The position numbers and the translations under genes were made by a program. A model generated the notes under the pieces. It had not been told where the DNA came from. It ran no database searches and saw only the letters and a list, made by a program, of their open reading frames with translations. A DNA stretch of 23,360 nt. It comes from a virus. The stretch is from positions 1 through 23,360 of the IMG/VR virus record IMGVR_UViG_3300010300_000112; one strand, given 5' to 3'. Shown here piece by piece: positions 606-16,386 of this stretch; within the stretch, counting starts at the first letter, position 1; each line of letters starts with the position of its first letter.

Positions 606-1325
606 ATGCCATTACCTACTATATCAACTCCAACATATGACCTTGAATTGCCATCTACAGGACAATCAATTCAATATAGACCATTTTTAGTTAGAGAAGA
701 GAAACTGCTCGTTCTTGCACTGGAAAGTGAAGATACTAAACAGATAACAACCTCTATTAAGACTGTAATTAAAAATTGCATTTTAACAAAAGGCGTAAGG
801 GTTGAAGATCTTCCCACTTTTGATATTGAATATTTGTTTTTAAATATTCGTGGTAAGTCTGTCGGTGAGGACTTGGAAGTTAACATCCTTTGCCCAGATG
901 ATGAACAAACTTATGTTCCTACAACCATTAACATTGACGATATTAAGGTATTAAAAAATCCTGATCACGATAGGCAAATTAAAATAGATGATTCTATTGC
1001 GATGGAGATGAAGTATCCATCACTGGATCAATTTATTAAGAGCAATTTTGATTTTGCTTCTACCAATAATGTTGAACAGTCCTTTGATTTGATTGCTTCT
1101 TGTATCGATCAAATTTTTACTGAAGAAGAGTCTTGGGCAGCAAAAGATGTTCCCAAAAAAGAAATCAATGACTTTTTAGAGCAGATGAATTCATCTCAAT
1201 TTAAAAAGATTGAGAAGTTTTTTGAGACAATGCCCAAACTCTCACATGAGATTAAGATTAAAAATCCAAATACTGGAGTTGAGAGCACCGTTGTGCTGGA
1301 GGGACTGTCAAGTTTTTTCGCATAG
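606..1325 (+). CDS. 26: gp26-like baseplate hub assembly protein / probable tail assembly chaperone
   Basis: A 239-aa protein resembling the T4 gp26-type baseplate hub family. N-terminal PLPTISTPTYDLELPSTG leads into a strand-rich domain, then a helical second half, ending in the motif VVLEGLSSFFA. T4 gp26 is about 208 aa. The family helps assemble the central hub in the cytoplasm before the tail is built. The start is supported by AGGA at 595-598. The gene lies between a tube-like gene and the first tape-measure-like gene. That is the position of the G/GT tail assembly chaperones in lambda-type phages. The last codons carry a textbook -1 slippery heptamer that would fuse residues 1-238 to 62 extra residues, giving a 300-aa product. 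Family identity is fairly sure; the chaperone role by analogy with G/GT is inference. Confidence 0.75.
   Translation: MPLPTISTPTYDLELPSTGQSIQYRPFLVREEKLLVLALESEDTKQITTSIKTVIKNCILTKGVRVEDLPTFDIEYLFLNIRGKSVGEDLEVNILCPDDEQTYVPTTINIDDIKVLKNPDHDRQIKIDDSIAMEMKYPSLDQFIKSNFDFASTNNVEQSFDLIASCIDQIFTEEESWAAKDVPKKEINDFLEQMNSSQFKKIEKFFETMPKLSHEIKIKNPNTGVESTVVLEGLSSFFA
1298..1319 (+). promoter_or_regulatory. Predicted -1 programmed ribosomal frameshift signal
   Basis: In the zero frame the gp26-like gene ends AGT TTT TTC GCA TAG. The heptamer T_TTT_TTC at 1313-1319 fits the X_XXY_YYZ rule for -1 slippage. A Shine-Dalgarno-like GGAGGG at 1298-1303 sits 9 bases upstream of it, close to the spacing of the stimulator in E. 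coli dnaX. After slippage, reading continues CGC ATA GCA CTC TCT CAC ATG with no stop, into the frame at 1337-1507. The zero-frame stop lies directly after the slip site, at 1323-1325. I could not identify a clear downstream stem-loop by eye. Confidence 0.7.
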
Positions 1326-1336
1326 CACTCTCTCAC

Positions 1337-1507
1337 ATGGATCTGGAGAATTATTATAAATTAAATTTTGCCCTGTTACAGTACCATAAATACTCATTAA
1401 CTGAGGTTGAAAATTTGATACCATGGGAGCGGGAAGTTTATGTTGCATTATTGAAGGCTCATTTGGAAGAAGAGAAACTCAAGGCGCAACAGCAATCTAA
1501 TAGCTAA
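1337..1507 (+). CDS. 56-aa -1 frame extension of the gp26-like gene (gp51-like / T-like)
   Basis: A short open frame beginning MDLENYYKLNFALLQYHKYS and ending in a Glu/Lys/Gln-rich helix. It lies in the -1 frame relative to the gp26-like gene and is open back through the slippery site at 1313-1319. Its own ATG has no Shine-Dalgarno (the preceding bases are GCACTCTCTCAC). I therefore infer it is made mainly as a 62-residue C-terminal extension of gp26, like the T part of lambda GT, which recruits the tape measure. Its TAA overlaps the ATG of the tape-measure-like gene (TAATG at 1505-1509), consistent with coupled translation. An alternative is a stand-alone small hub assembly factor (gp51-like) translated from 1337. 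Confidence 0.7.
   Translation: MDLENYYKLNFALLQYHKYSLTEVENLIPWEREVYVALLKAHLEEEKLKAQQQSNS
1385..1392 (+). promoter_or_regulatory. T4-type late promoter motif (CATAAATA) inside the -1 frame ORF
   Basis: CATAAATA matches the T4 late element TATAAATA in 7 of 8 positions and is followed by C, about 115 bases before the 826-aa gene. The same octamer occurs in the intergenic region at 8247-8254. It lies within coding sequence, so it may be chance or an internal late promoter for the tape-measure-like genes. Confidence 0.3.
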
Positions 1508-3987
1508 TGGCGAATATTCCAAACTACATATCAGAGATAATACCGTATTCCAGAGTCTTAAAAAGGAAGAACGGATTTAGAGCGTCTATAGGTGGATACA
1601 TTGCACGCTCTAAATTTCTGATTGCTAATGAGTTTGGAGTAGATCCAGATAAAGTACACGATATATTTTTAAAAGCATGGGATAAGTCGGAGAAGGACTA
1701 CCCTTCTCCTTCTATTATATTCCCACAAACATCAAAGGAAGCAGATTTATATAATAACTACGTTTTATACATTTGGAAGTATTACGTAGAGGATAAGAGT
1801 AAACCAAAACCACCACCAAAGGAACCAAAATTACCAAATGTAAAACAACCTAAGGTTGAGGAACCAGAGGAAGAGGACACTGGAGAATTTCAGGGATATA
1901 ATGATCCAGAAGATCCACCAATGGCGTGGTCGGAACCAACTACAAAACCAAAACAACCTCCAGGCGCAATTGTGCCAAAAATGTATGAGGGTGTTGGTGG
2001 ACAAGATCTTGTAGATGAAGAGATTGATGAAAGAATATTAAAACTTCTTGGATTAGAAGATGTATTTGATATTGATTATGATACTTATATCTCTCTGCTA
2101 AAGGGGTGGGCATTAGAAGCAAGGATGTCAAAAACTTCTGTCTCTACAGAAGAATCTGAGTTAGTAGTTGAAGAATATAAGAGAGTAAGGCGTAAAGTTG
2201 GTCGATTTAAGATCAACAAAAAGCGGGAGCAGAGAGGTGGCGTTCCACCGTTGCAAGGTGCTAAAAACTTTGTTACTGGCGCAACAGAACCACCACAGAA
2301 GTTACTTCCACCAGCAGGACCACAAAGACCTAAAAGAAAAGCAACTCTTGAAGAGAATGTTGCTGCAATTAGAAAGAGTGTAGAGTCTATCCTCAAGATT
2401 ATGGAGGATCAATTCTCCATACTCAGAAGACAGGCGGAGTTAGATCGAAGATCTAGGGAAAAATCAAAGAGATCTGATAGAGAGAATAAGTTAGAAGGTG
2501 CTGTCAAGAAGACTATGGCTCTTGCTAAAAGAGTTTTGGCACCAGCATTAAGTTTGCTTGATAGAATCATACAATTTATCACAACTGTTTTACTTGGTAG
2601 AGCATTGGTTAAATTGATGGATTGGCTTGCTGATGGAAACAATCAGAAAAAGTTGCAATCTTTATTGAGATTTATTGGAGATTGGTGGCCAACTATACTC
2701 GCAGCATGGGTTATATTTGCAACTCCTCTTGGAAAACTTATTAGAACAGTTTTAGGTGGAATTGTAAAGATGACCATGTTTATGGTCAAGAAGGGTATTC
2801 CCAAACTACTTAGTATTATTAGAAAGAATCCAAAAGCTGCTCTCGCAACAGCAATTGTAGGGGCTGCTGCCACTGGACTGGTGATGCAGTCTCAGTCAAA
2901 GTCAAATGATCCAGACGCAAAAGAGGGGCAGACACAATTAGATGATACTAGAAAATTTGGAGGAACTACTGGAGATCCAGTAGGAGTTTTGGGTGAAATG
3001 CGTGGTGGTGGAGTTGTTCCCAAAGGAAGACTTGCTGGATATAGTAGAGGTGGCAAGATGCTTCCTTCTAGAAGAACACAGAATAGTAATGGAGGCAAAA
3101 TTAATGGATCAACTGGTAGAAGAATCAGGGGTGCTGGAAAAGATACCCAGTTAGTTGCAGCGCAACCTGGAGAAGTTGTCATCTCTAAAAAAGCAGTTGA
3201 TAAGTTTGGAGCACCCTTCTTCTTGAATTTGAATAAGATGGGCGGTGGTACTAATATTCCATCCTATTCTAAATTCTCTGATATTCAGTTTGCTCAAGGT
3301 GGCGGACAAATTGGTATTACTGTCGATGACGGACTTGAAAGATTAAGTCTTCGTGAATTGTATGCCATGTTAGATCCAACTGAACCTGCTGCAAAAAGAC
3401 CACATGTATTCAGAGCAGCAAAAGAAGCAAGAGAAAGATATGCAAGTGCTACAAGAGAAGAGAGAGATAGGCAGGTTGCTATAGCGACAATTCGTGCTAA
3501 GAGAATGCCAGAACCAAGTTCCTCTGGTTCTTCCACTTCAACTGCTGGCAGAAGTGGTGCATCAGCAGCAAATAAAATAGTCTCTAAACCCACATTCATA
3601 TCCAATTCTCCTGCTCAGACTGTCAATAAAACAGATGATACTGAACAGGGAGGAGAGATTACTGCTAAGAATATAGTCTCTGGTTCTGGTTCATCTGCTC
3701 CATTTAGTGGAGTTCTTCCAAAGTCTCCTGAGGATAAATCATCAAGCACATCAGTAAAACCCGCAGCAACTATTGCTAAGGGATCTGTCAAACCACTGGA
3801 AGCCCCCGCTCCACCAGAACCCACCATGAATGTGACTACTATATCAACTGCTGCCCAACAAAAAGCATTGGGAACTGGTGCTCAACCATCTGGTAGTAGA
3901 GAGCATGATACTGGATTTGATGTGTTTATACAGACCGAATCCAGAATGATGATGTTGGCGATATATGGAATAACGGGGGTAGCATAA
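1507..3987 (+). CDS. Tape-measure-like virion protein 1 (826 aa)
   Basis: A large tail protein with several segments. Residues 1-95 are a folded N-terminal domain, and about 97-160 are Pro/Glu/Lys-rich. A Lys/Arg/Glu-rich likely coiled coil spans about 280-335. Hydrophobic and amphipathic helices follow at about 335-465, including GDWWPTILAAWVIFATPLG. A Gly/Arg region contains PGEVVISKKAVDKFG at about 554-568, a motif I associate with phage tape-measure proteins. The last 200 residues are Ser/Thr/Pro-rich and end LAIYGITGVA. The position right after a predicted chaperone frameshift site supports a tape measure, which sets tail length inside the tube. The start overlaps the upstream stop (TAATG), and the next gene begins one base after this stop. 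No detailed match to T4 gp29 was recognised. A generic virion structural protein is the fallback. Confidence 0.6.
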   Translation: MANIPNYISEIIPYSRVLKRKNGFRASIGGYIARSKFLIANEFGVDPDKVHDIFLKAWDKSEKDYPSPSIIFPQTSKEADLYNNYVLYIWKYYVEDKSKPKPPPKEPKLPNVKQPKVEEPEEEDTGEFQGYNDPEDPPMAWSEPTTKPKQPPGAIVPKMYEGVGGQDLVDEEIDERILKLLGLEDVFDIDYDTYISLLKGWALEARMSKTSVSTEESELVVEEYKRVRRKVGRFKINKKREQRGGVPPLQGAKNFVTGATEPPQKLLPPAGPQRPKRKATLEENVAAIRKSVESILKIMEDQFSILRRQAELDRRSREKSKRSDRENKLEGAVKKTMALAKRVLAPALSLLDRIIQFITTVLLGRALVKLMDWLADGNNQKKLQSLLRFIGDWWPTILAAWVIFATPLGKLIRTVLGGIVKMTMFMVKKGIPKLLSIIRKNPKAALATAIVGAAATGLVMQSQSKSNDPDAKEGQTQLDDTRKFGGTTGDPVGVLGEMRGGGVVPKGRLAGYSRGGKMLPSRRTQNSNGGKINGSTGRRIRGAGKDTQLVAAQPGEVVISKKAVDKFGAPFFLNLNKMGGGTNIPSYSKFSDIQFAQGGGQIGITVDDGLERLSLRELYAMLDPTEPAAKRPHVFRAAKEARERYASATREERDRQVAIATIRAKRMPEPSSSGSSTSTAGRSGASAANKIVSKPTFISNSPAQTVNKTDDTEQGGEITAKNIVSGSGSSAPFSGVLPKSPEDKSSSTSVKPAATIAKGSVKPLEAPAPPEPTMNVTTISTAAQQKALGTGAQPSGSREHDTGFDVFIQTESRMMMLAIYGITGVA

Positions 3988-3988
3988 G

Positions 3989-6697
3989 ATGGCAATAGAT
4001 CCCAAAAAACTTCTACCAACTTCTGGTGGGGAATTAACATATCTTGCAGTTCCCAAACAAATATCTTTACCAACAGCAAAGATCATTCCATCATCAAATA
4101 AAAAGGGTGTTCTTGGGGTTGTTAACCTTGTTGATGAGGAAGACGATCAGACAACTGATGGTGTCAGTGATACTGTAAAAGATGATGTTGCGGCAATTAG
4201 AGAGACTACTGTAAAGATACAAAAAATTGTCAAAAAGAGTATTAGGTTAAATCTAGCAAAAATTAGAACTGATAAAAGAGAACAAGAAAATCTAAGAAGA
4301 AAGAGGCGAGAAGACGATAGCGAAAAACCAAAAGAGAAGAAGTCTGGACCTGGATTGTCAATACCTCTTCCAAAAATATCCATGTTTGAGAGGTTAAAGA
4401 ACTTTCTTGGATCGGTGTTTGTGGGATGGTTGGGAGTTAGGTTATTAAAGTTTATTCCACAAATGATGCAATTCATTGAATGGATAAAACCAATTGCTTC
4501 TTTTATTGGCGATTTTGTATCTGGATTGCTTGATAAGTTAGTTACTTTTATTGATATTGGTTATACCACGGTAGACAAAATAGAGGGGACGATAGAAAAT
4601 TTATTTGGTGATGATGGTAAGGAAAAGTTCAAGCAATTCCAAAGCACATTTACCAAATTTATGAATTTTGCAATGATTGCAGCGATGTTGGGTGCTGCAG
4701 TCAATAATGATCTTGGTAGAAATAGTCCATTCAGGGGTCCTCAAAGGGTTGGATTTGATAGATCTGGTAGAAGAGTAGGAACAAGAGCGCAACAAAGATA
4801 TCGCCAAAGATTTGGTGATAGAAGATTTACTGAAAGATTTGGTCGTCAAAATACCAGAAGATTAGATAGAATTGCGGGAAAAGTTCCCAGAGGAGCAGCA
4901 GACCCACTTGCTGGGATGGTACAAAAGGGTGTTACTAAGGTTGCTGGTAAGACCGCTGGTAAGATTGCTGGTAAGATTCCAATTGTTGGTCCTCTGATTG
5001 ATTTTGGAATTAGAGCATTTGTTTTTAAAGAACCACTTGGAAAAGCAGCAGCAGGTGCTGTTGGTGCTGGTGTTGGTCAGGCACTTGGAACATGGTTAGG
5101 TGGAGTTGTTGGTGGACTTGCTGGATCTGTTGTACCAATTGTTGGTAATATTCTTGGTGCTGCAGGTGGTGCTACATTAGGTGGACTGATTGGTGGTGTT
5201 ATTGGTGATCAGATTGGTGTCAGTTTGTATAATGTTGTTGCTGGCAAGGAAGATAGTTCTGCTGCTGAAGATCTTGAGAAAAAAGCAACTGGAGGAACAG
5301 TTGGAGAAGAGGAATCTGAGAGACAAAAAAAAGAGCAGGATGCTCTGCGCGAGAAGATAAGAAAAGCAAATGCTTCAAGAGTCAACATGAAACAAGATGA
5401 CTCTCATTTAAAAAAACCAAAACAAAATCCAAAAAAAGGAAATATATTCCAGATGCTTTTTGGTCGTGGGGGTCAGTCTCAATCTCAAGGTGATGATAGT
5501 GGTGGAATATTTGGAAGTATAAGAAAAGCAGTCAGGAATTTGAAGAGAACTAACAGTTCTCTTATCAGTAAGATAATGGCGATGGGTATCGACTTACTTG
5601 GTGGTAAAAAACCAGATAAGAGAGCGATACGACAAATTGCTAAGAGTTTGACAAACTTCTTTGATGCTGCCATACCAGCACCAATCTTTATGCTCAAATC
5701 TCTTCTTCAGAAGTTGGCAACTGGTGGTATGGTCATCGAGACTCCACTTGAGAGTCAAAGAAAGATGATGGAGTTGAGCAAACAAATTGAGAGAAGCTTC
5801 CTAAAGGATGTAAACAGAGATACTTCACTTGCAACTTCAACATTAAATCAAGCTCAACCAACTCAGTCAGCACTTCCTGGTGTTCCTCGTCGTCCTCGTG
5901 GTGCCAATCCCCCTGGAGGATCTAATGCTCTTCCTACTGCTGCTGGAGCAACTGTGGCAGCGACTGCTAAAGTAACTGGTATCAGTGGATCATCAGGAAC
6001 TGTTGCTTATGCTGGAAGAGAAGGTGCGGGATTATCTGTATCCTATAGTCCATTTGCCGCTGGGTCTGGTGCTGTGATTACATCTGGTAAAGGATATAGA
6101 AGAAGCACTAATTCTGATCATAAAGGATATGATGTTGGTGCTCCAACAGGAACACCAATGTATGCATATCTTGACGGCGAGGTCACGCATACAAATACTG
6201 TATTAGGTGGTCCAAAAGATGGAAGTTATGGATATTGGATTGTCTGGAAAGATTCTACTCATGGTGCATACCACTTCTTTGGTCATTTAAATAGACCGCC
6301 AGCGTTGAATGTTGGTGCTAAATTCAAAGCAGGCGCTTTACTTGCTGAAGTTGGTGGTTCTGGTGCTGGAAGATTGAATAAGTATGCCCCACACTTACAC
6401 TGGGAGATATCAAACAGTGCTCCAGCAGCAAATGGACAATTTAGTTCTTATGTAGATCCTGGACAGTGGGTTAATACTCATGGCAAATCCAAAGCTCCTG
6501 CACAAGTAGCATCTGGACCGAAAAAATTAGATCCAGGAGCAGTGTCTTCAAAAGCATCTTATGAGAAAAATGAACAGACCATAGCATTAGTTGAGAAGAC
6601 AAGAGTTGTTAGAACAAATGGAAGTGTAAATACCAGTGGGCGTTCAGTTCCATCTGTTCTTGAGAATCAGCAAACAATATCTGCTACAGCTGCTTGA
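3989..6697 (+). CDS. Tape-measure-like protein 2 with C-terminal M23 peptidase (902 aa)
   Basis: Residues about 65-115 (VAAIRETTVKIQKI, then Lys/Arg/Glu-rich) resemble the coiled coil of the preceding 826-aa protein. Hydrophobic helices follow at about 130-200. A Gly/Ala-rich glycine-zipper stretch at about 350-420 contains VGAGVGQALGTWLGGVVGGL. Residues about 690-830 are an M23 (LytM-type) metallopeptidase domain with zinc motifs H711-x3-D715 (HKGYDVG) and H802-x-H804 (HLHWE), plus a further His in FFGHLN (H766). M23 enzymes cut peptidoglycan peptide cross-links. In a tail protein this would open the cell wall during DNA entry. The M23 call is strong. The tape-measure or hub assignment comes from position and composition. 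The one-base spacing to the upstream gene suggests coupled translation. Confidence 0.8.
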   Translation: MAIDPKKLLPTSGGELTYLAVPKQISLPTAKIIPSSNKKGVLGVVNLVDEEDDQTTDGVSDTVKDDVAAIRETTVKIQKIVKKSIRLNLAKIRTDKREQENLRRKRREDDSEKPKEKKSGPGLSIPLPKISMFERLKNFLGSVFVGWLGVRLLKFIPQMMQFIEWIKPIASFIGDFVSGLLDKLVTFIDIGYTTVDKIEGTIENLFGDDGKEKFKQFQSTFTKFMNFAMIAAMLGAAVNNDLGRNSPFRGPQRVGFDRSGRRVGTRAQQRYRQRFGDRRFTERFGRQNTRRLDRIAGKVPRGAADPLAGMVQKGVTKVAGKTAGKIAGKIPIVGPLIDFGIRAFVFKEPLGKAAAGAVGAGVGQALGTWLGGVVGGLAGSVVPIVGNILGAAGGATLGGLIGGVIGDQIGVSLYNVVAGKEDSSAAEDLEKKATGGTVGEEESERQKKEQDALREKIRKANASRVNMKQDDSHLKKPKQNPKKGNIFQMLFGRGGQSQSQGDDSGGIFGSIRKAVRNLKRTNSSLISKIMAMGIDLLGGKKPDKRAIRQIAKSLTNFFDAAIPAPIFMLKSLLQKLATGGMVIETPLESQRKMMELSKQIERSFLKDVNRDTSLATSTLNQAQPTQSALPGVPRRPRGANPPGGSNALPTAAGATVAATAKVTGISGSSGTVAYAGREGAGLSVSYSPFAAGSGAVITSGKGYRRSTNSDHKGYDVGAPTGTPMYAYLDGEVTHTNTVLGGPKDGSYGYWIVWKDSTHGAYHFFGHLNRPPALNVGAKFKAGALLAEVGGSGAGRLNKYAPHLHWEISNSAPAANGQFSSYVDPGQWVNTHGKSKAPAQVASGPKKLDPGAVSSKASYEKNEQTIALVEKTRVVRTNGSVNTSGRSVPSVLENQQTISATAA

Positions 6698-8275: not shown

Positions 8276-8488
8276 ATGGAAAACATCGAACAACATATTG
8301 AGGCAGATAAAAAGATCCTTGACGATCCTCAGACATCACCTCAAGCTCGCAGACATACAGAACAAGAACTGGCAGATTTGGAAGCATACGCAGAGCGTCA
8401 TCCAGAAGATCATCATGATCCAACACCACTTGAATTGTACTGCGACACTCACCCCGACGCTGCAGAGTGCAGAATTTACGAAGACTGA
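8276..8488 (+). CDS. CP12-like small protein (C-terminal CP12 motif)
   Basis: A 70-aa acidic, His-rich protein. The C-terminus contains LELYCDTHPDAAECRIYED, which closely follows the C-terminal CP12 signature (C-x8-C followed by an R-x-Y-(D/E)-(D/N) end, as in plant and cyanobacterial CP12). The cysteines are C56 and C65. In cyanobacteria CP12 bridges GAPDH and phosphoribulokinase and switches off the Calvin cycle. Cyanophage CP12 is known and is thought to steer host carbon towards the pentose phosphate pathway. Here the N-terminal Cys pair and the AWD-VEEL core are absent. Only the GAPDH-binding half is evident, and residues 1-50 are a charged helix. No Shine-Dalgarno is visible before the ATG (an A-run precedes it). 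The gene sits unusually between two hub genes. It could instead be a structural protein that has borrowed the motif. Confidence 0.7.
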   Translation: MENIEQHIEADKKILDDPQTSPQARRHTEQELADLEAYAERHPEDHHDPTPLELYCDTHPDAAECRIYED

Positions 8489-11088: not shown

Positions 11089-11676
11089 ATGGGAAAACCT
11101 AGAATTCATAACCCAATAGAACTGGGAAATGACTTTGGTCATATAAAATTTGGGCACATTAATAAGAACTACACCTACGCTGGTGTCATGATTCGTAATG
11201 GTCATCCAGGACAAGCATCAGAACATTATATGATGTTCATGTCATCGGGCACTATGTCGGGTGGAACTATTAATAGGTGTCCAGGAGTATACCAAGTTAT
11301 TTGTGGCGAAGTGCCTGTAAATGACACTTCTTATATTGTAAGTGCTTCTGAAGGTGATATTGTTCTTAGAGCTCCAAACGGAAGGATCCGAATGGAAGCA
11401 AGAAACATTGATATCAAAGCAACTGGTCAAAACAATAAGAATGGACATATCAACATTGAGTCTAATGAGAAAGTTGCAATTAGATCTAAGAACATCGAGA
11501 TTAATGGGGATGCTATTTGTAAATTGCTATCTTCAGGAACATGTGAATTAGTTGGAAGTAGTGCTTTGAATTTTTATGGAGGATTGATTGACTGTGCGGA
11601 TTCTGCCACAACACTTCTACCATCTAAGGGAACATCTAAATTTGAGGATCAACAGAGGACTGGAGGATTTATTTAA
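11089..11676 (+). CDS. Beta-helix spike protein (gp5 C-terminal-like needle), 195 aa
   Basis: Residues about 85-172 are short alternating strands typical of the triple-stranded beta-helix of the T4 gp5 needle and VgrG spikes: EGDIVLRAPNGRIRMEA, NGHINIESNEKVAIRSKNIE, then a Gly-broken series to FYGGLIDCAD. The N-terminal 84 residues are a separate domain (FGHINKNYTYAGVMIRNGHP). It directly follows the OB-fold hub gene, so the T4 gp5 architecture appears split over two genes, without lysozyme. The likely role is a membrane-piercing spike under the baseplate. The stop overlaps the next ATG (TAATG at 11674-11678). Confidence 0.65.
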   Translation: MGKPRIHNPIELGNDFGHIKFGHINKNYTYAGVMIRNGHPGQASEHYMMFMSSGTMSGGTINRCPGVYQVICGEVPVNDTSYIVSASEGDIVLRAPNGRIRMEARNIDIKATGQNNKNGHINIESNEKVAIRSKNIEINGDAICKLLSSGTCELVGSSALNFYGGLIDCADSATTLLPSKGTSKFEDQQRTGGFI

Positions 11677-12452
11677 TGAAAGTACCTGATTTAGAAATTA
11701 AAAAGACATTATATGTTGGTGTTGGTGATCCAAGTACTGTATTGGGTAAAGGACCTCTGCAAATCAGGGGTGGTTCTTTTATGGAAGGACCATCTATTTT
11801 CGGTTCAATTCCGCCATTTTTAACTGCAACAGTAATGATTGGTCCTTGTGAAAACTCGGACATGTTAATTCCTCCAATCATCCCTGGTGCTCTCTGTACT
11901 GGAATTAACAATCCATATTCCTTAGCAGTTGATGGTCCAGCAGCATTTCTTGGAATTGTTGATACCAATGCAAATATAAATGCTGGTGGTAATATCACTG
12001 CTCAGGGTGAGGTCATGTCTCGTTGTGGTGGACATATTCTGTCTGCTAAGAAGAACTTTGATATTCCTCACCCAACAAAAGAGGGTTGGAGATTACGTCA
12101 TACTTGTCCAGAGGGACCAAGTAATGATGTATACATAAGGGGTAAATTAAAAAATAAAAATACTATTGAACTTCCTGAATATTGGAGGGAGTTGGTTGAT
12201 GCTGATTCTATTACAGTATCAATTACTCCAGTAGGAACTCATCAGAATATTATTATTCAAAGAATAGAGGATAATAAAGTTTATCTTCATGCTTCTACTC
12301 CGATTAATTGTCACTATCACATCTTTGCTGAACGGAAAGATGGAGAAAAATTAATCCCAGAATATGAAGGATCAACTCCAGCAGACTATCCTGGTAATAA
12401 TGATGAGTACTCTGTATCTGGATATCATTACGACACTAAGAGGTATATCTAA
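11676..12452 (+). CDS. Structural protein with RLRH-EGP C-terminal domain, copy 1 (258 aa)
   Basis: Residues 1-125 form a Gly/Pro-rich N-terminal region (IQIRGGSF-like strands, MIGPCENSD), perhaps a tip or adaptor. Residues about 126-258 form a domain running FDIPHPTKEGWRLRHTCPEG, then VYIRGKL, ELPEYWRELVD, SITVSITPVG, and ending STPADYPGNNDEYSVSGYHYD. The same domain recurs in the next gene and, from memory, in many phage and large-virus fibre or structural proteins with no settled function. Position beside the spike suggests a baseplate tip or short-fibre component. The start overlaps the spike stop. The function is not known to me. Confidence 0.55.
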   Translation: MKVPDLEIKKTLYVGVGDPSTVLGKGPLQIRGGSFMEGPSIFGSIPPFLTATVMIGPCENSDMLIPPIIPGALCTGINNPYSLAVDGPAAFLGIVDTNANINAGGNITAQGEVMSRCGGHILSAKKNFDIPHPTKEGWRLRHTCPEGPSNDVYIRGKLKNKNTIELPEYWRELVDADSITVSITPVGTHQNIIIQRIEDNKVYLHASTPINCHYHIFAERKDGEKLIPEYEGSTPADYPGNNDEYSVSGYHYDTKRYI

Positions 12453-12454
12453 TT

Positions 12455-13156
12455 ATGGCAGAATTTGAACCAGATTTTAGTAATAAAAGCACTTGTGCGG
12501 ATGAGGGTGTAAGTGGACCTTTTTCCTCAAAGTATGATTACATATTGAAACCAAATACTGGAGATTCGGATTATCCTGCTGATGCTTGCATTCCTTGGGT
12601 GCATTATAATGTTAAGGTGGGCAATCTTCAAGCGGATCAAAACATCGTTGCAGGTGGAAATGGAACATTTGGTGGGACTGTGACTGCTCCTACATTCTCT
12701 GGGCAGATTAACGTTCAATCTTGGAAGGGATTTGACATTAAACATCCCAACAAAGAAAACCATAGATTGAGACATATTTGTCTAGAGGGTCCAGAGGCAG
12801 GTGTTTTTTATCGTGGAAGATTAAAAGATTCAAATTACATCCAACTTCCAGAATATTGGAAGGGATTGGTTGATTATGAATCAATTACTGTATCGTTAAC
12901 TCAAATTGGATCCTCTCAAGATTTGATTGTAGATGCAATTGAGTGGAACTCTAGAATCAAAGTTAGATCTGGTAATGCGTCAAATATTGATTGTTATTTT
13001 GTAGTACACGCTGCCAGAATCGATGGAGAACCATTGATTGTAGAATATGAGGGGCAAACTCCTGCAGAATACCCAGGAGATGACAAGCAATTCTCAATCT
13101 CTGGATATGATTATGATGCACGCGGAGACAAGAGCACTAAGGACGTTAGTTTATAG
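12455..13156 (+). CDS. Structural protein with RLRH-EGP C-terminal domain, copy 2 (233 aa)
   Basis: The C-terminal domain from about residue 85 (GFDIKHPNKENHRLRHICLE) parallels copy 1 segment by segment: GVFYRGRL, LPEYWKGLVD, ESITVSLTQIG, CYFVVHAARIDGEPLIVEYE, PAEYPGDDKQFSISGYDYD. The N-terminal 80 residues differ from copy 1 and end with a strand repeat (NIVAGGNGTFGGTVTAPTF) like those that precede trimerising domains in fibres. The two genes look like a tandem duplication that kept one domain and diverged at the N-terminus. It is probably a tail-tip or fibre-associated virion protein. The ATG is 2 bases after the upstream stop. Confidence 0.55.
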   Translation: MAEFEPDFSNKSTCADEGVSGPFSSKYDYILKPNTGDSDYPADACIPWVHYNVKVGNLQADQNIVAGGNGTFGGTVTAPTFSGQINVQSWKGFDIKHPNKENHRLRHICLEGPEAGVFYRGRLKDSNYIQLPEYWKGLVDYESITVSLTQIGSSQDLIVDAIEWNSRIKVRSGNASNIDCYFVVHAARIDGEPLIVEYEGQTPAEYPGDDKQFSISGYDYDARGDKSTKDVSL

Positions 13157-14019: not shown

Positions 14020-14091
14020 GCGGAGTTAGTTCAGCGGTAGAACGCTATCCTTCCAAGTTAGATGTCGTCGGTTCGATTCCGATACTCCGCT
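14020..14091 (+). tRNA. tRNA-Gly(UCC)
   Basis: Complete cloverleaf. Acceptor arms GCGGAGT/ACTCCGC pair perfectly. D-arm GTTC-AGCGGTA-GAAC, anticodon loop CTTCCAA with anticodon TCC, T-arm GTCGG-TTCGATT-CCGAT, discriminator T. No CCA is encoded. The anticodon stem CTATC/GTTAG has one T-T mismatch (30-40), unusual but compatible with folding. It decodes GGA, which is very frequent in the neighbouring structural genes. Confidence 0.9.
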
Positions 14092-14292: not shown

Positions 14293-14376
14293 GGGAGCGT
14301 GGTGGAATAGGTAGACACAACAGACTTAAAATCTGTCGGGAGTTATCCCATGTCGGTTCAAGTCCGACCGTTCCTA
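14293..14376 (+). tRNA. tRNA-Leu(UAA), intronless
   Basis: Class II tRNA with an extra arm. Acceptor arms GGGAGCG/CGTTCCT (two G-T wobbles), anticodon stem ACAGA/TCTGT with loop CTTAAAA (anticodon TAA), long variable arm CGGGAGTTATCCCAT, T-arm GTCGG-TTCAAGT-CCGAC, discriminator A, no encoded CCA. It decodes TTA, common in this AT-rich region. Many cyanobacterial tRNA-Leu(UAA) genes carry a group I intron in the anticodon loop; this copy has none. Confidence 0.9.
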
Positions 14377-14405
14377 CTTGGGAGGAGTACAAAAGGTCCC
14401 TTATA

Positions 14406-14453: not shown

Positions 14454-14753
14454 ATGAAGTTAAAGATTACCAAGTCGTACTGCTGGCATGATCCCAATGA
14501 ATTTGGAATGCCAGAGCGAGTGGTCAACATGTACTTCATTAATGGAATACCATTTACCTGGGACGAATTAACAGAGGAAGAAGAATCCAATTATTCATGT
14601 ACTATTGCTGCAAATACACATCAACGTAGATATACTGCAGAAGATTTGTTTATAGCATCTGGGTATTTGATTATGGAAGAATGTCATCCTTGTTTTTTTG
14701 AGATGGAATTAGAAAACCCAGAAATGCTAGCAGAATTAGATGATGGAATTTAG
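14454..14753 (+). CDS. Hypothetical protein (99 aa)
   Basis: I do not recognise the family. The protein is acidic, with a strand-rich N-terminal half (MKLKITKSYCWHDPN, VVNMYFINGIPFTW) and a helical C-terminal half (YTAEDLFIASGYLIMEE). The cysteines at 10, 49, 77 and 80, including C77-HP-C80, might bind a metal, but the spacing matches no zinc motif I know. The nearest Shine-Dalgarno (AGGA 14437-14440) is 13 bases away, longer than usual. It overlaps the next gene by 14 bases, so it is probably co-translated with the oxygenase at 14740. Confidence 0.7.
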   Translation: MKLKITKSYCWHDPNEFGMPERVVNMYFINGIPFTWDELTEEEESNYSCTIAANTHQRRYTAEDLFIASGYLIMEECHPCFFEMELENPEMLAELDDGI

Positions 14754-15279
14754 AAACCCCCATGGAATCTTTACGGTTCCTTTTTTTGTAGAAGAAATTG
14801 ATCTTAGTAAGATTAATTTTATTGATGCAGAATTTAATAAATCATTCCTTAGTCAGGTCAATACGACTTTGGGAAATGATTCTTTAACTGAAGAGTCTTA
14901 TGAATACCTCTGTGGCATAATACATGAGTGTATTGGTCAATTCTCAGATAAACCATTTGCAATTGGTCAAGTTTGGCGAAATGAGTATGAAGAATCTGAT
15001 TGGCAAGATCCACACATTCATTCTGGAGCACAGTGGAGTTTTATAGTTTATGATACTGTAGAACACTCTAGAACCGTATTCATGAATCCTGCTCGTAAGG
15101 AGATTATGAATCAGTGGGGAACCTATGCAAATACAATACCAATGGATTTTATTCCTAAAATTCCATCGGGTCATATGATTATTTTCCCATCATGGGTTGA
15201 GCACTTTGTTATGAGTGGTAATAGGGGAAGAACAATATCTGGTAACATTTATCTTGATCAACCTCCGTCAGGACCTTAG
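14740..15279 (+). CDS. 2-oxoglutarate/Fe(II) oxygenase-like protein (179 aa)
   Basis: A compact double-stranded beta-helix protein of the phage 2OG-Fe(II) oxygenase type. The first metal motif is in DPHIHSGAQWSFIVYD (H92 and H94). The distal His is H155 in FPSWVEHFVMSG. R164 in RTISGNI is the likely 2-oxoglutarate-binding Arg. Such enzymes hydroxylate proteins, nucleobases or small molecules. Small ones are common in cyanophage genomes with mostly unknown substrates. Two in-frame ATGs (14740 and 14743) occur with no Shine-Dalgarno. The 14-base overlap with the 99-aa gene indicates coupled translation. The next gene begins 6 bases after the stop. Confidence 0.75.
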   Translation: MMEFRNPHGIFTVPFFVEEIDLSKINFIDAEFNKSFLSQVNTTLGNDSLTEESYEYLCGIIHECIGQFSDKPFAIGQVWRNEYEESDWQDPHIHSGAQWSFIVYDTVEHSRTVFMNPARKEIMNQWGTYANTIPMDFIPKIPSGHMIIFPSWVEHFVMSGNRGRTISGNIYLDQPPSGP

Positions 15280-15285
15280 TAGACT

Positions 15286-16386
15286 ATGTTTGACGCAAAA
15301 ATATATGATTATGATTCTTCAGATTACTTCTTAAGTGATACTGTATTGGAATGTGTCAAAAAATATTATCCAGATGTCAATGATTTAGCATTATTGCATG
15401 AGTTTGTCCCAGCAAAAAATATTGGAGAACTTGTAAAATTAATTGGCAAAGATCTCGCAGATACTGACTTTTATGTCAAATTCGATGAGATAATTGCTAG
15501 ATACGTATTCCCTCTTCTGCCTAGTGACGCACTGGTTCAAAAGTTTGGTAACATTAGAATAACAGTTCCTAATCAGGATAAGACTGGAACAGTATTACCA
15601 TTTCATCAAGGTAAATGGGTTGGTAACGGACTTGGAATGAGAACGGTCTGGTTGCCCTTTACTGATGCATACGATAGTAATTCTCTTCAAATTATTCATC
15701 TTGACGCAAGTCGGTTAATTACCAAGCAATGCTTAGAGCAAGATTGGTCGTATGAAGAATTTCAAGAGACATGTAACAGAGTTTGTCGTCCAGTAAATAT
15801 TAAAGAGGGACAATTCTTATTGTTTACTCAAGAACATATTCATGGTGCAGTTCCAAATACAACTGGAAAAACACGAATGAGTATTGACGTTAGAATTTTA
15901 CTCCGTGATGGACAACCCCATCGAAAATGGCCAGGAGCATATTTTAGAATTCTTGGTGATACTGATATTCAATCTCGAAGTATAACGATATCTGACGATC
16001 AAAATGTAGTTATGTATGCGGAGTATGAAGGATTTAAAACTAGAAATATTGATTTGTACTTCCAAACGTTAGTAGTTAAAGAGTATTGTAATAGAATGGG
16101 ATACACATTCCCACATCAAACTGGCGATAATGAGGGAAGAAATCACAATTATTTGGAATATTTAATCACAAAGGGAAATGTTGATCATATCTTAATGTTT
16201 AGTATATTCTCTCTTCCAGACAACTCTGTTAGAAGAAAGTATATTATGAACCTAGCATTGGAGAATAACTGTATATTACATTTTGCAAACGAAGAGTTTG
16301 TTCTTGATAATCAGAATATGCTAGATAAAATTGAGTATTTAAGAAATTTTACATCTGATTGGAGTAACCCAGCACATGAGGATTAA
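15286..16386 (+). CDS. 2OG-Fe(II) oxygenase-like domain fused to LIC12192-like domain (366 aa)
   Basis: Residues about 30-210 resemble the phytanoyl-CoA-dioxygenase-like oxygenase of 'sporadic carbohydrate cluster' loci: LPFHQGKWVGNGLGMRTVWL, then LPFTDAYDSNSLQII, and a distal motif HIHGAVPNTTGKTRMSIDVR with H186 and Arg 197 or 203. The usual H-x-D is H107-Q-G109 here, so the carboxylate iron ligand is missing. Residues about 242-352 resemble the separate LIC12192-type protein of the same loci: EGFKTRNIDLYFQTLVVKEY, then a helical middle, MFSIFSLPDNSVRRKYI, and LHFANEEFVL. Both assignments are from memory of these families. The fusion suggests the two act together on a sugar or nucleotide-sugar, perhaps altering host or virion glycans. 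An inactive oxygenase is the main alternative. The 3' end overlaps the next small gene by 11 bases. Confidence 0.65.
   Translation: MFDAKIYDYDSSDYFLSDTVLECVKKYYPDVNDLALLHEFVPAKNIGELVKLIGKDLADTDFYVKFDEIIARYVFPLLPSDALVQKFGNIRITVPNQDKTGTVLPFHQGKWVGNGLGMRTVWLPFTDAYDSNSLQIIHLDASRLITKQCLEQDWSYEEFQETCNRVCRPVNIKEGQFLLFTQEHIHGAVPNTTGKTRMSIDVRILLRDGQPHRKWPGAYFRILGDTDIQSRSITISDDQNVVMYAEYEGFKTRNIDLYFQTLVVKEYCNRMGYTFPHQTGDNEGRNHNYLEYLITKGNVDHILMFSIFSLPDNSVRRKYIMNLALENNCILHFANEEFVLDNQNMLDKIEYLRNFTSDWSNPAHED

Follow-up and report, generated by a model that had tools for sequence, protein, structure and literature searches.

A very probable programmed -1 frameshift site at the end of the gp26-like, putative tail assembly chaperone gene of a marine T4-like cyanophage

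The sequence studied here (the window) is the 23,360-base virus record of a marine T4-like cyanophage; all elements of the junction described below lie on the + strand. The gp26-like gene (606-1325) encodes a zero-frame product of 239 aa, a candidate short, G-like tail assembly chaperone, which matched PF12322 (T4_baseplate, E 1e-74) and phrog_150 (E 6e-79). Its closest gp26 among the matches listed in the phage collection is that of Synechococcus phage S-SM2 (76% identity). The reading frame ends with AGT|TTT|TTC|GCA|TAG, which places the heptamer T_TTT_TTC at 1313-1319 (T6 at 1313-1318, C at 1319) in the phase that is required for a tandem -1 slip and makes it an X_XXY_YYZ heptamer with respect to the zero frame. 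The zero-frame stop TAG (1323-1325) is the second codon past the heptamer. A Shine-Dalgarno (SD)-like GGAGGG, a candidate upstream stimulator, is found within Glu-Gly codons at 1298-1303, 9 nt 5' of the heptamer (10 nt for the GGAGG core). Reading in the -1 frame meets no stop from 1319 until the TAA at 1505-1507. The product of its 62 codons (1319-1507), a putative T-like domain, matched phrog_634 (E 2e-27), labelled 'baseplate hub assembly catalyst' (gp51), and this match included residues ahead of the first in-frame ATG. By these three homologies the locus belongs to the T4-like gp26/gp51 family. The ATG, at 1337-1339, opens a portion of 56 aa (1337-1507) and is not preceded by an SD; this type of start is annotated in relatives but is probably not the main one. 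The predicted fusion would have 238 + 62 = 300 aa. Its end overlaps in TAATG, at 1507, with the start of an 826-aa ORF. All coordinates in the initial annotation proved correct, and the two product lengths, the uninterrupted -1 frame, the small ORF without an SD of its own and the overlap with the next ATG were likewise found as it had described them.

Two large tape-measure-like ORFs of 826 and 902 aa (1507-3987 and 3989-6697) come after the chaperone gene. Neither matches T4 gp29 by sequence. They have a region of about 175 residues in common (E 2e-9), each contains a hydrophobic segment, and the 902-aa ORF carries a peptidase M23 domain; the tape measure may be either of them or both. Further along the window, an auxiliary metabolic gene (8276-8488) lies within the baseplate gene cluster and encodes a 70-aa CP12 domain protein (PF02672, E 7e-14). 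Tandem paralogues at 11676-12452 and 12455-13156 share 49% identity over 169 aa and both match phrog_17490/28536. Genes for tRNA-Gly(TCC) (14020-14091) and tRNA-Leu(TAA) (14293-14377) are situated between phage genes, and two 2-oxoglutarate-dependent dioxygenase-like genes (PF13759, PhyH) are adjacent at 14740-15279 and 15286-16386. Two more in-frame heptamers, both T_TTT_TTT, occur in neighbouring genes at 14693-14699 and 14781-14787. These were set aside as frameshift sites: as the overlapping ORF at 14740 is outside the -1 frame of the first, T_TTT_TTT is there probably by chance.

Homologues of the junction were gathered from IMG/VR and from annotated phages. This yielded 241 loci in which the end of gp26 was complete; they were reduced to 130 representatives by dereplication at more than 90% nucleotide identity. 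TTTTTT[C/T/G] was present at the junction in 239 of the 241 loci and in all representatives. The codon ahead of TTT was one of eight (AGT, TCT, GAT, AAT, GCT, GGT, CAT or ACT), specifying seven amino acids, and ended in T in 130/130, while the remaining Phe-Phe pairs of the same genes were slippery in just 3 of 132 cases. The heptamer is kept in cyanophages (Kyanoviridae), pelagiphages (HTVC008M and Mosig), KVP40-like phages, Ceceduovirus and phages of Rhizobiales, Pseudomonas and Stenotrophomonas; the phages that retain it include the Methylophilales phage Melnitz-3, KVP40, Vibrio 6E35, Aeromonas P19, pf16, Astolliot, DLP6, Mendera, phiN3, phiM9, OLIVR5 and Acinetobacter SH-Ab 15599. Since the relatives are phylogenetically dependent, P values are only indicative. 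The alignments confirm that the conservation of the heptamer exceeds chance, and the codon phase together with the homologous loci confirms its frame.

Only two loci were without the heptamer. One is a contig with its gp26 frame broken earlier and otherwise 99% identical to HTVC008M. The other is Vibrio phage D531 (L089 2839-3900), in which the gp26 homologue ends with TCA CTT TTC AAG TAATGG and an extension-like ORF begins in the TAATG overlap. This arrangement is possibly an alternative solution by reinitiation. Homologues that keep the small ORF with its own ribosome binding site and lack the slippery site had been named beforehand as evidence against frameshifting; such an arrangement was encountered in part, in this one clade, and D531 counts as a genuine exception.

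In each of the 128 complete representatives the -1 frame ran for 56-73 codons without a stop, and 551 phage records in the collection contain the extension. When its 62 residues were used in a tblastn search, most of the phage records listed aligned from the first residues onwards, right past the slip site. Third positions vary most among the -1 codons, and the coding pattern of the -1 frame is present also ahead of the ATG. In the records examined the extension is annotated as an independent gene, often as 'baseplate hub assembly catalyst', or is left out, and gp26 is named a baseplate hub protein. Public annotation has thus adopted the reading that a short gp51 is made separately, from the ATG at 1337 or by termination-reinitiation after gp26, and that no frameshift occurs. 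The in-frame ATG of the window agrees with this reading, as do the TAATG/TGATG overlaps in KVP40, Mendera, phiM9 and D531. However, 43 of the 130 representatives have no ATG in the first eight codons of the extension, ahead of the conserved core, so that independent initiation there would drop conserved residues. Where the ATG is present, the SD energy has a median of +0.7 kcal/mol versus -3.9 kcal/mol for gp26, and it is at or below -6 kcal/mol in only 2/121. With the ATG often missing and the SDs poor, independent translation of the small ORF explains little; moreover, conservation of the -1 frame and of the amino acids it encodes extends all the way to the slip codon, and the rule of the T-ending codon and the in-phase T6 would be left unexplained. 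A separate gene is therefore considered improbable.

The GGAGGG of the window was compared with the corresponding positions in relatives. At this site 71 of 100 relatives encode the Glu by GAG, against 31.6% GAG among the Glu codons of these genes. The anti-SD pairs here with an energy 1.0 kcal/mol more favourable than the synonymous expectation, a gain larger than that of each of 38 control windows. Where GGAGG was found, it was located 10 nt 5' of the heptamer in 31 representatives. This indicates, at the level of sequence, that codons are chosen in favour of an SD-like element at a distance of 10 nt from the heptamer. The element is strong in the window itself, whereas several clades outside the cyanophages have a weak one or none. 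The alignment across cyanophages and other T4-like phages that the initial annotation had proposed thus bore out a conserved heptamer and -1 frame; the upstream element is not universal outside cyanophages.

Downstream of the slip site, the 102 nt that follow were more stably folded in the family than their synonymous variants (mean z -1.9), compared with z values of -0.15 to -0.95 for windows along the gene and the extension and -1.27 for a closely overlapping one. In one group of relatives a local 5-bp hairpin (GGUCC-AUAU-GGACC and variants) was observed with 18 double-change cells and 97.6% of the cells paired. This covariation was reached in none of 500 shuffles, and RNAalifold recovers the hairpin unaided. 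In the group to which the window belongs (Leu-Ser-His / Glu codons), a 10-bp stem would join 1326-1335, about 6-7 nt after the heptamer, and 1424-1433, in the codons for WERE, across 88 nt. In the candidate stem this group has 8.29 pairs per sequence versus 7.13 by synonymous chance (0/1000), and its 15 double-change cells were reached in 0/500 shuffles. RNAalifold did not recover the long stem unaided from this group, and the stem is for that reason only moderately supported. For this fold, z falls as low as -5.6 in some relatives, Mosig among them. The window itself showed weak downstream structure, with z -0.97 in the 102-nt test and +0.12 in a separate fold test, and neither of the two stems was present in 55 of 121 relatives. 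An apparent stem in KVP40 has a shifted register and was hence not counted as homologous. A hairpin around the slip site of the window (1280-1335, z -1.9) was dropped, the mean z of the relatives being -0.17, and a search of Rfam gave no match. Taken over the family, a downstream structure is well supported by the sequence comparison; there is good support for the local hairpin, the long-range stem is probable, and confidence in its strength in this particular phage is low. The earlier suggestion to fold the region up to 1400 met with partial success: folds ending there revealed no structure because the 3' arm sits at 1424-1433, and longer folds revealed one at the family level that is weak in the window. 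Candidate stimulators are present in the family, and the window has a strong SD-like element and a weak stem.

The T6 run could also give rise to both products by slippage of the RNA polymerase, which would generate mixed mRNAs. Six T's are short for polymerase slippage. In addition, this process needs neither a fixed codon phase nor an SD-like element nor a downstream RNA structure, and we regard it as very unlikely.

The relation to T4 was evident from profile searches. The profile of the 300-aa fusion matched T4 gp26 over the region of the short form (E 3e-25), and its alignment with T4 gp51 crossed the junction without a break (E 1e-12). These E-values are optimistic because the target database was small (seven sequences). 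The gp26 and gp51 of Acinetobacter phage 133 behaved in the same way. These matches imply that the fused form would be the counterpart of T4 gp51 and the short form that of T4 gp26. T4 and phage 133 carry 26 and 51 as two distinct genes of divergent orientation and have lost the heptamer. The last codons for T4 gp26 are GAG TTC TTT GAG, in which FF is kept in non-slippery codons. This bears on the idea that the extension is a functionless relic and that the junction is conserved on account of the C-terminal FF of gp26. The FF is indeed conserved at the protein level, but T4 retains it without slippery codons, and the extension has preserved the invariant residues F17 and E37 as well as its pattern of third-position variation. 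A relic is for these reasons hardly credible.

An AlphaFold2 model of gp26 had a mean pLDDT of 86.8. Its only PDB match of substance was the HK97 tail assembly chaperone 2ob9 (prob 0.82, TM 0.53 by target length, E about 1), a resemblance that is suggestive. The extension was modelled as helices with moderate confidence, and a sequence search of solved structures returned nothing useful. That gp26/gp51 may be the functional counterpart of the G/GT pair, as the initial annotation had put forward, is supported by the homology of T4 gp51 to gp26 plus extension and weakly by the HK97 fold match; it is already in the literature (see below).

Taken together, the locus is best explained as a tail assembly chaperone gene whose two forms arise by programmed -1 ribosomal frameshifting; this reading, with its stimulators, the fusion and a G/GT-like role included, is highly probable. 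Nearly all comparative tests that were able to refute such a frameshift came out in its favour (the heptamer, the frame, the lack of an SD and often of an ATG for the small ORF, the stimulators and the loss of the heptamer in T4). The data on which this is based are the conservation, the phase, the openness of the -1 frame, the stimulators seen in codon choice and the homology to T4 gp26/gp51; slippage, its rate and the role in assembly are what we infer. The -1 frameshift very probably makes, next to gp26, a 300-aa gp26-51 fusion, the two forming a G/GT-type pair. Most ribosomes would read gp26 up to the stop at 1323 and produce the 239-aa short form. A fraction, slowed by the upstream SD-like element and the downstream RNA structure, would slip at T_TTT_TTC, with both Phe tRNAs moving back by one base. 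The slipped ribosomes would continue in the -1 frame to 1507 and yield the gp26-gp51 fusion. On the model of lambda G/GT, the tape measure may be coated by many copies of the short form and few of the long one, and tail tube subunits may be recruited through the extension.

For T4-related phages in general, we lean towards the view that outside the T4 lineage most of them set the gp26/gp51 ratio by frameshifting and that the stimulator is modular. It would consist of the SD-like element 10 nt upstream and a clade-specific downstream RNA, either the local 5-bp hairpin or the 10-bp stem, whose loop spans about 88 nt; in the T4 lineage two separate genes take the place of the frameshift. The gp51 of cyanophages was reported to have about 20% of the normal length and to lack the first ~200 residues (Sullivan et al., 2010; PMC3037559). 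If the view is correct, this shortness is explained by the frameshift. The predicted frameshift arrangement is widespread in T4-related phages, with the two genes of T4 as the exception in this set. The locus offers a testable tail assembly chaperone pair for abundant marine phages and a ready reporter target to measure frameshifting in cyanobacteria.

Among known systems, the stimulators resemble those of Escherichia coli dnaX, which has an SD-like element about 10 nt upstream and a downstream stem. The dnaX heptamer is A_AAA_AAG, the gene is cellular and its frameshift product is shorter. The G/GT chaperones of lambda, a system found in many siphophages and in Mu-like myophages, had no detectable sequence relationship to this locus. 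The present heptamer, T_TTT_TTC, differs from theirs, SD-like and RNA-structure stimulators are under selection here, and the annotated names refer to the hub or baseplate.

T4 gp26/gp51 were described as the tail assembly chaperones of T4-like phages by Vladimirov, Gautam and Davidson (2022; Virology 566:9-15; 10.1016/j.virol.2021.11.003), as cited in PMC10885494 and PMC12846349. The former, the PRFect paper, states with reference to Vladimirov et al. (2022) that in some T4-like phages frameshifting is replaced by two genes, one short and one long and fused. Frameshifting at this locus in cyanophages was not found in the accessible literature, and Vladimirov et al. (2022) may or may not contain an account of it. 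The kind of chaperone frameshift is thus already known, and the cyanophage case is at least missing from the annotation examined. According to the paper on phage Adele (PMC12846349), the short chaperone gene of T4-like phages is known to contain T-rich frameshift signals. The chaperone locus of the Vandenendeviridae/Andersonviridae, to which that paper refers, resembles the present one in a conserved T-rich motif (GTTTTT) where the short gene ends and in an open -1 frame misannotated as a separate gene; these families differ from that of this phage. T4 gp26 and gp51 themselves are homologous to the short form and, across the junction, to the fusion. T4 and Acinetobacter phage 133 employ two full-length separate genes free of the heptamer, whereas this phage and most of its relatives have one gene plus a frameshift.
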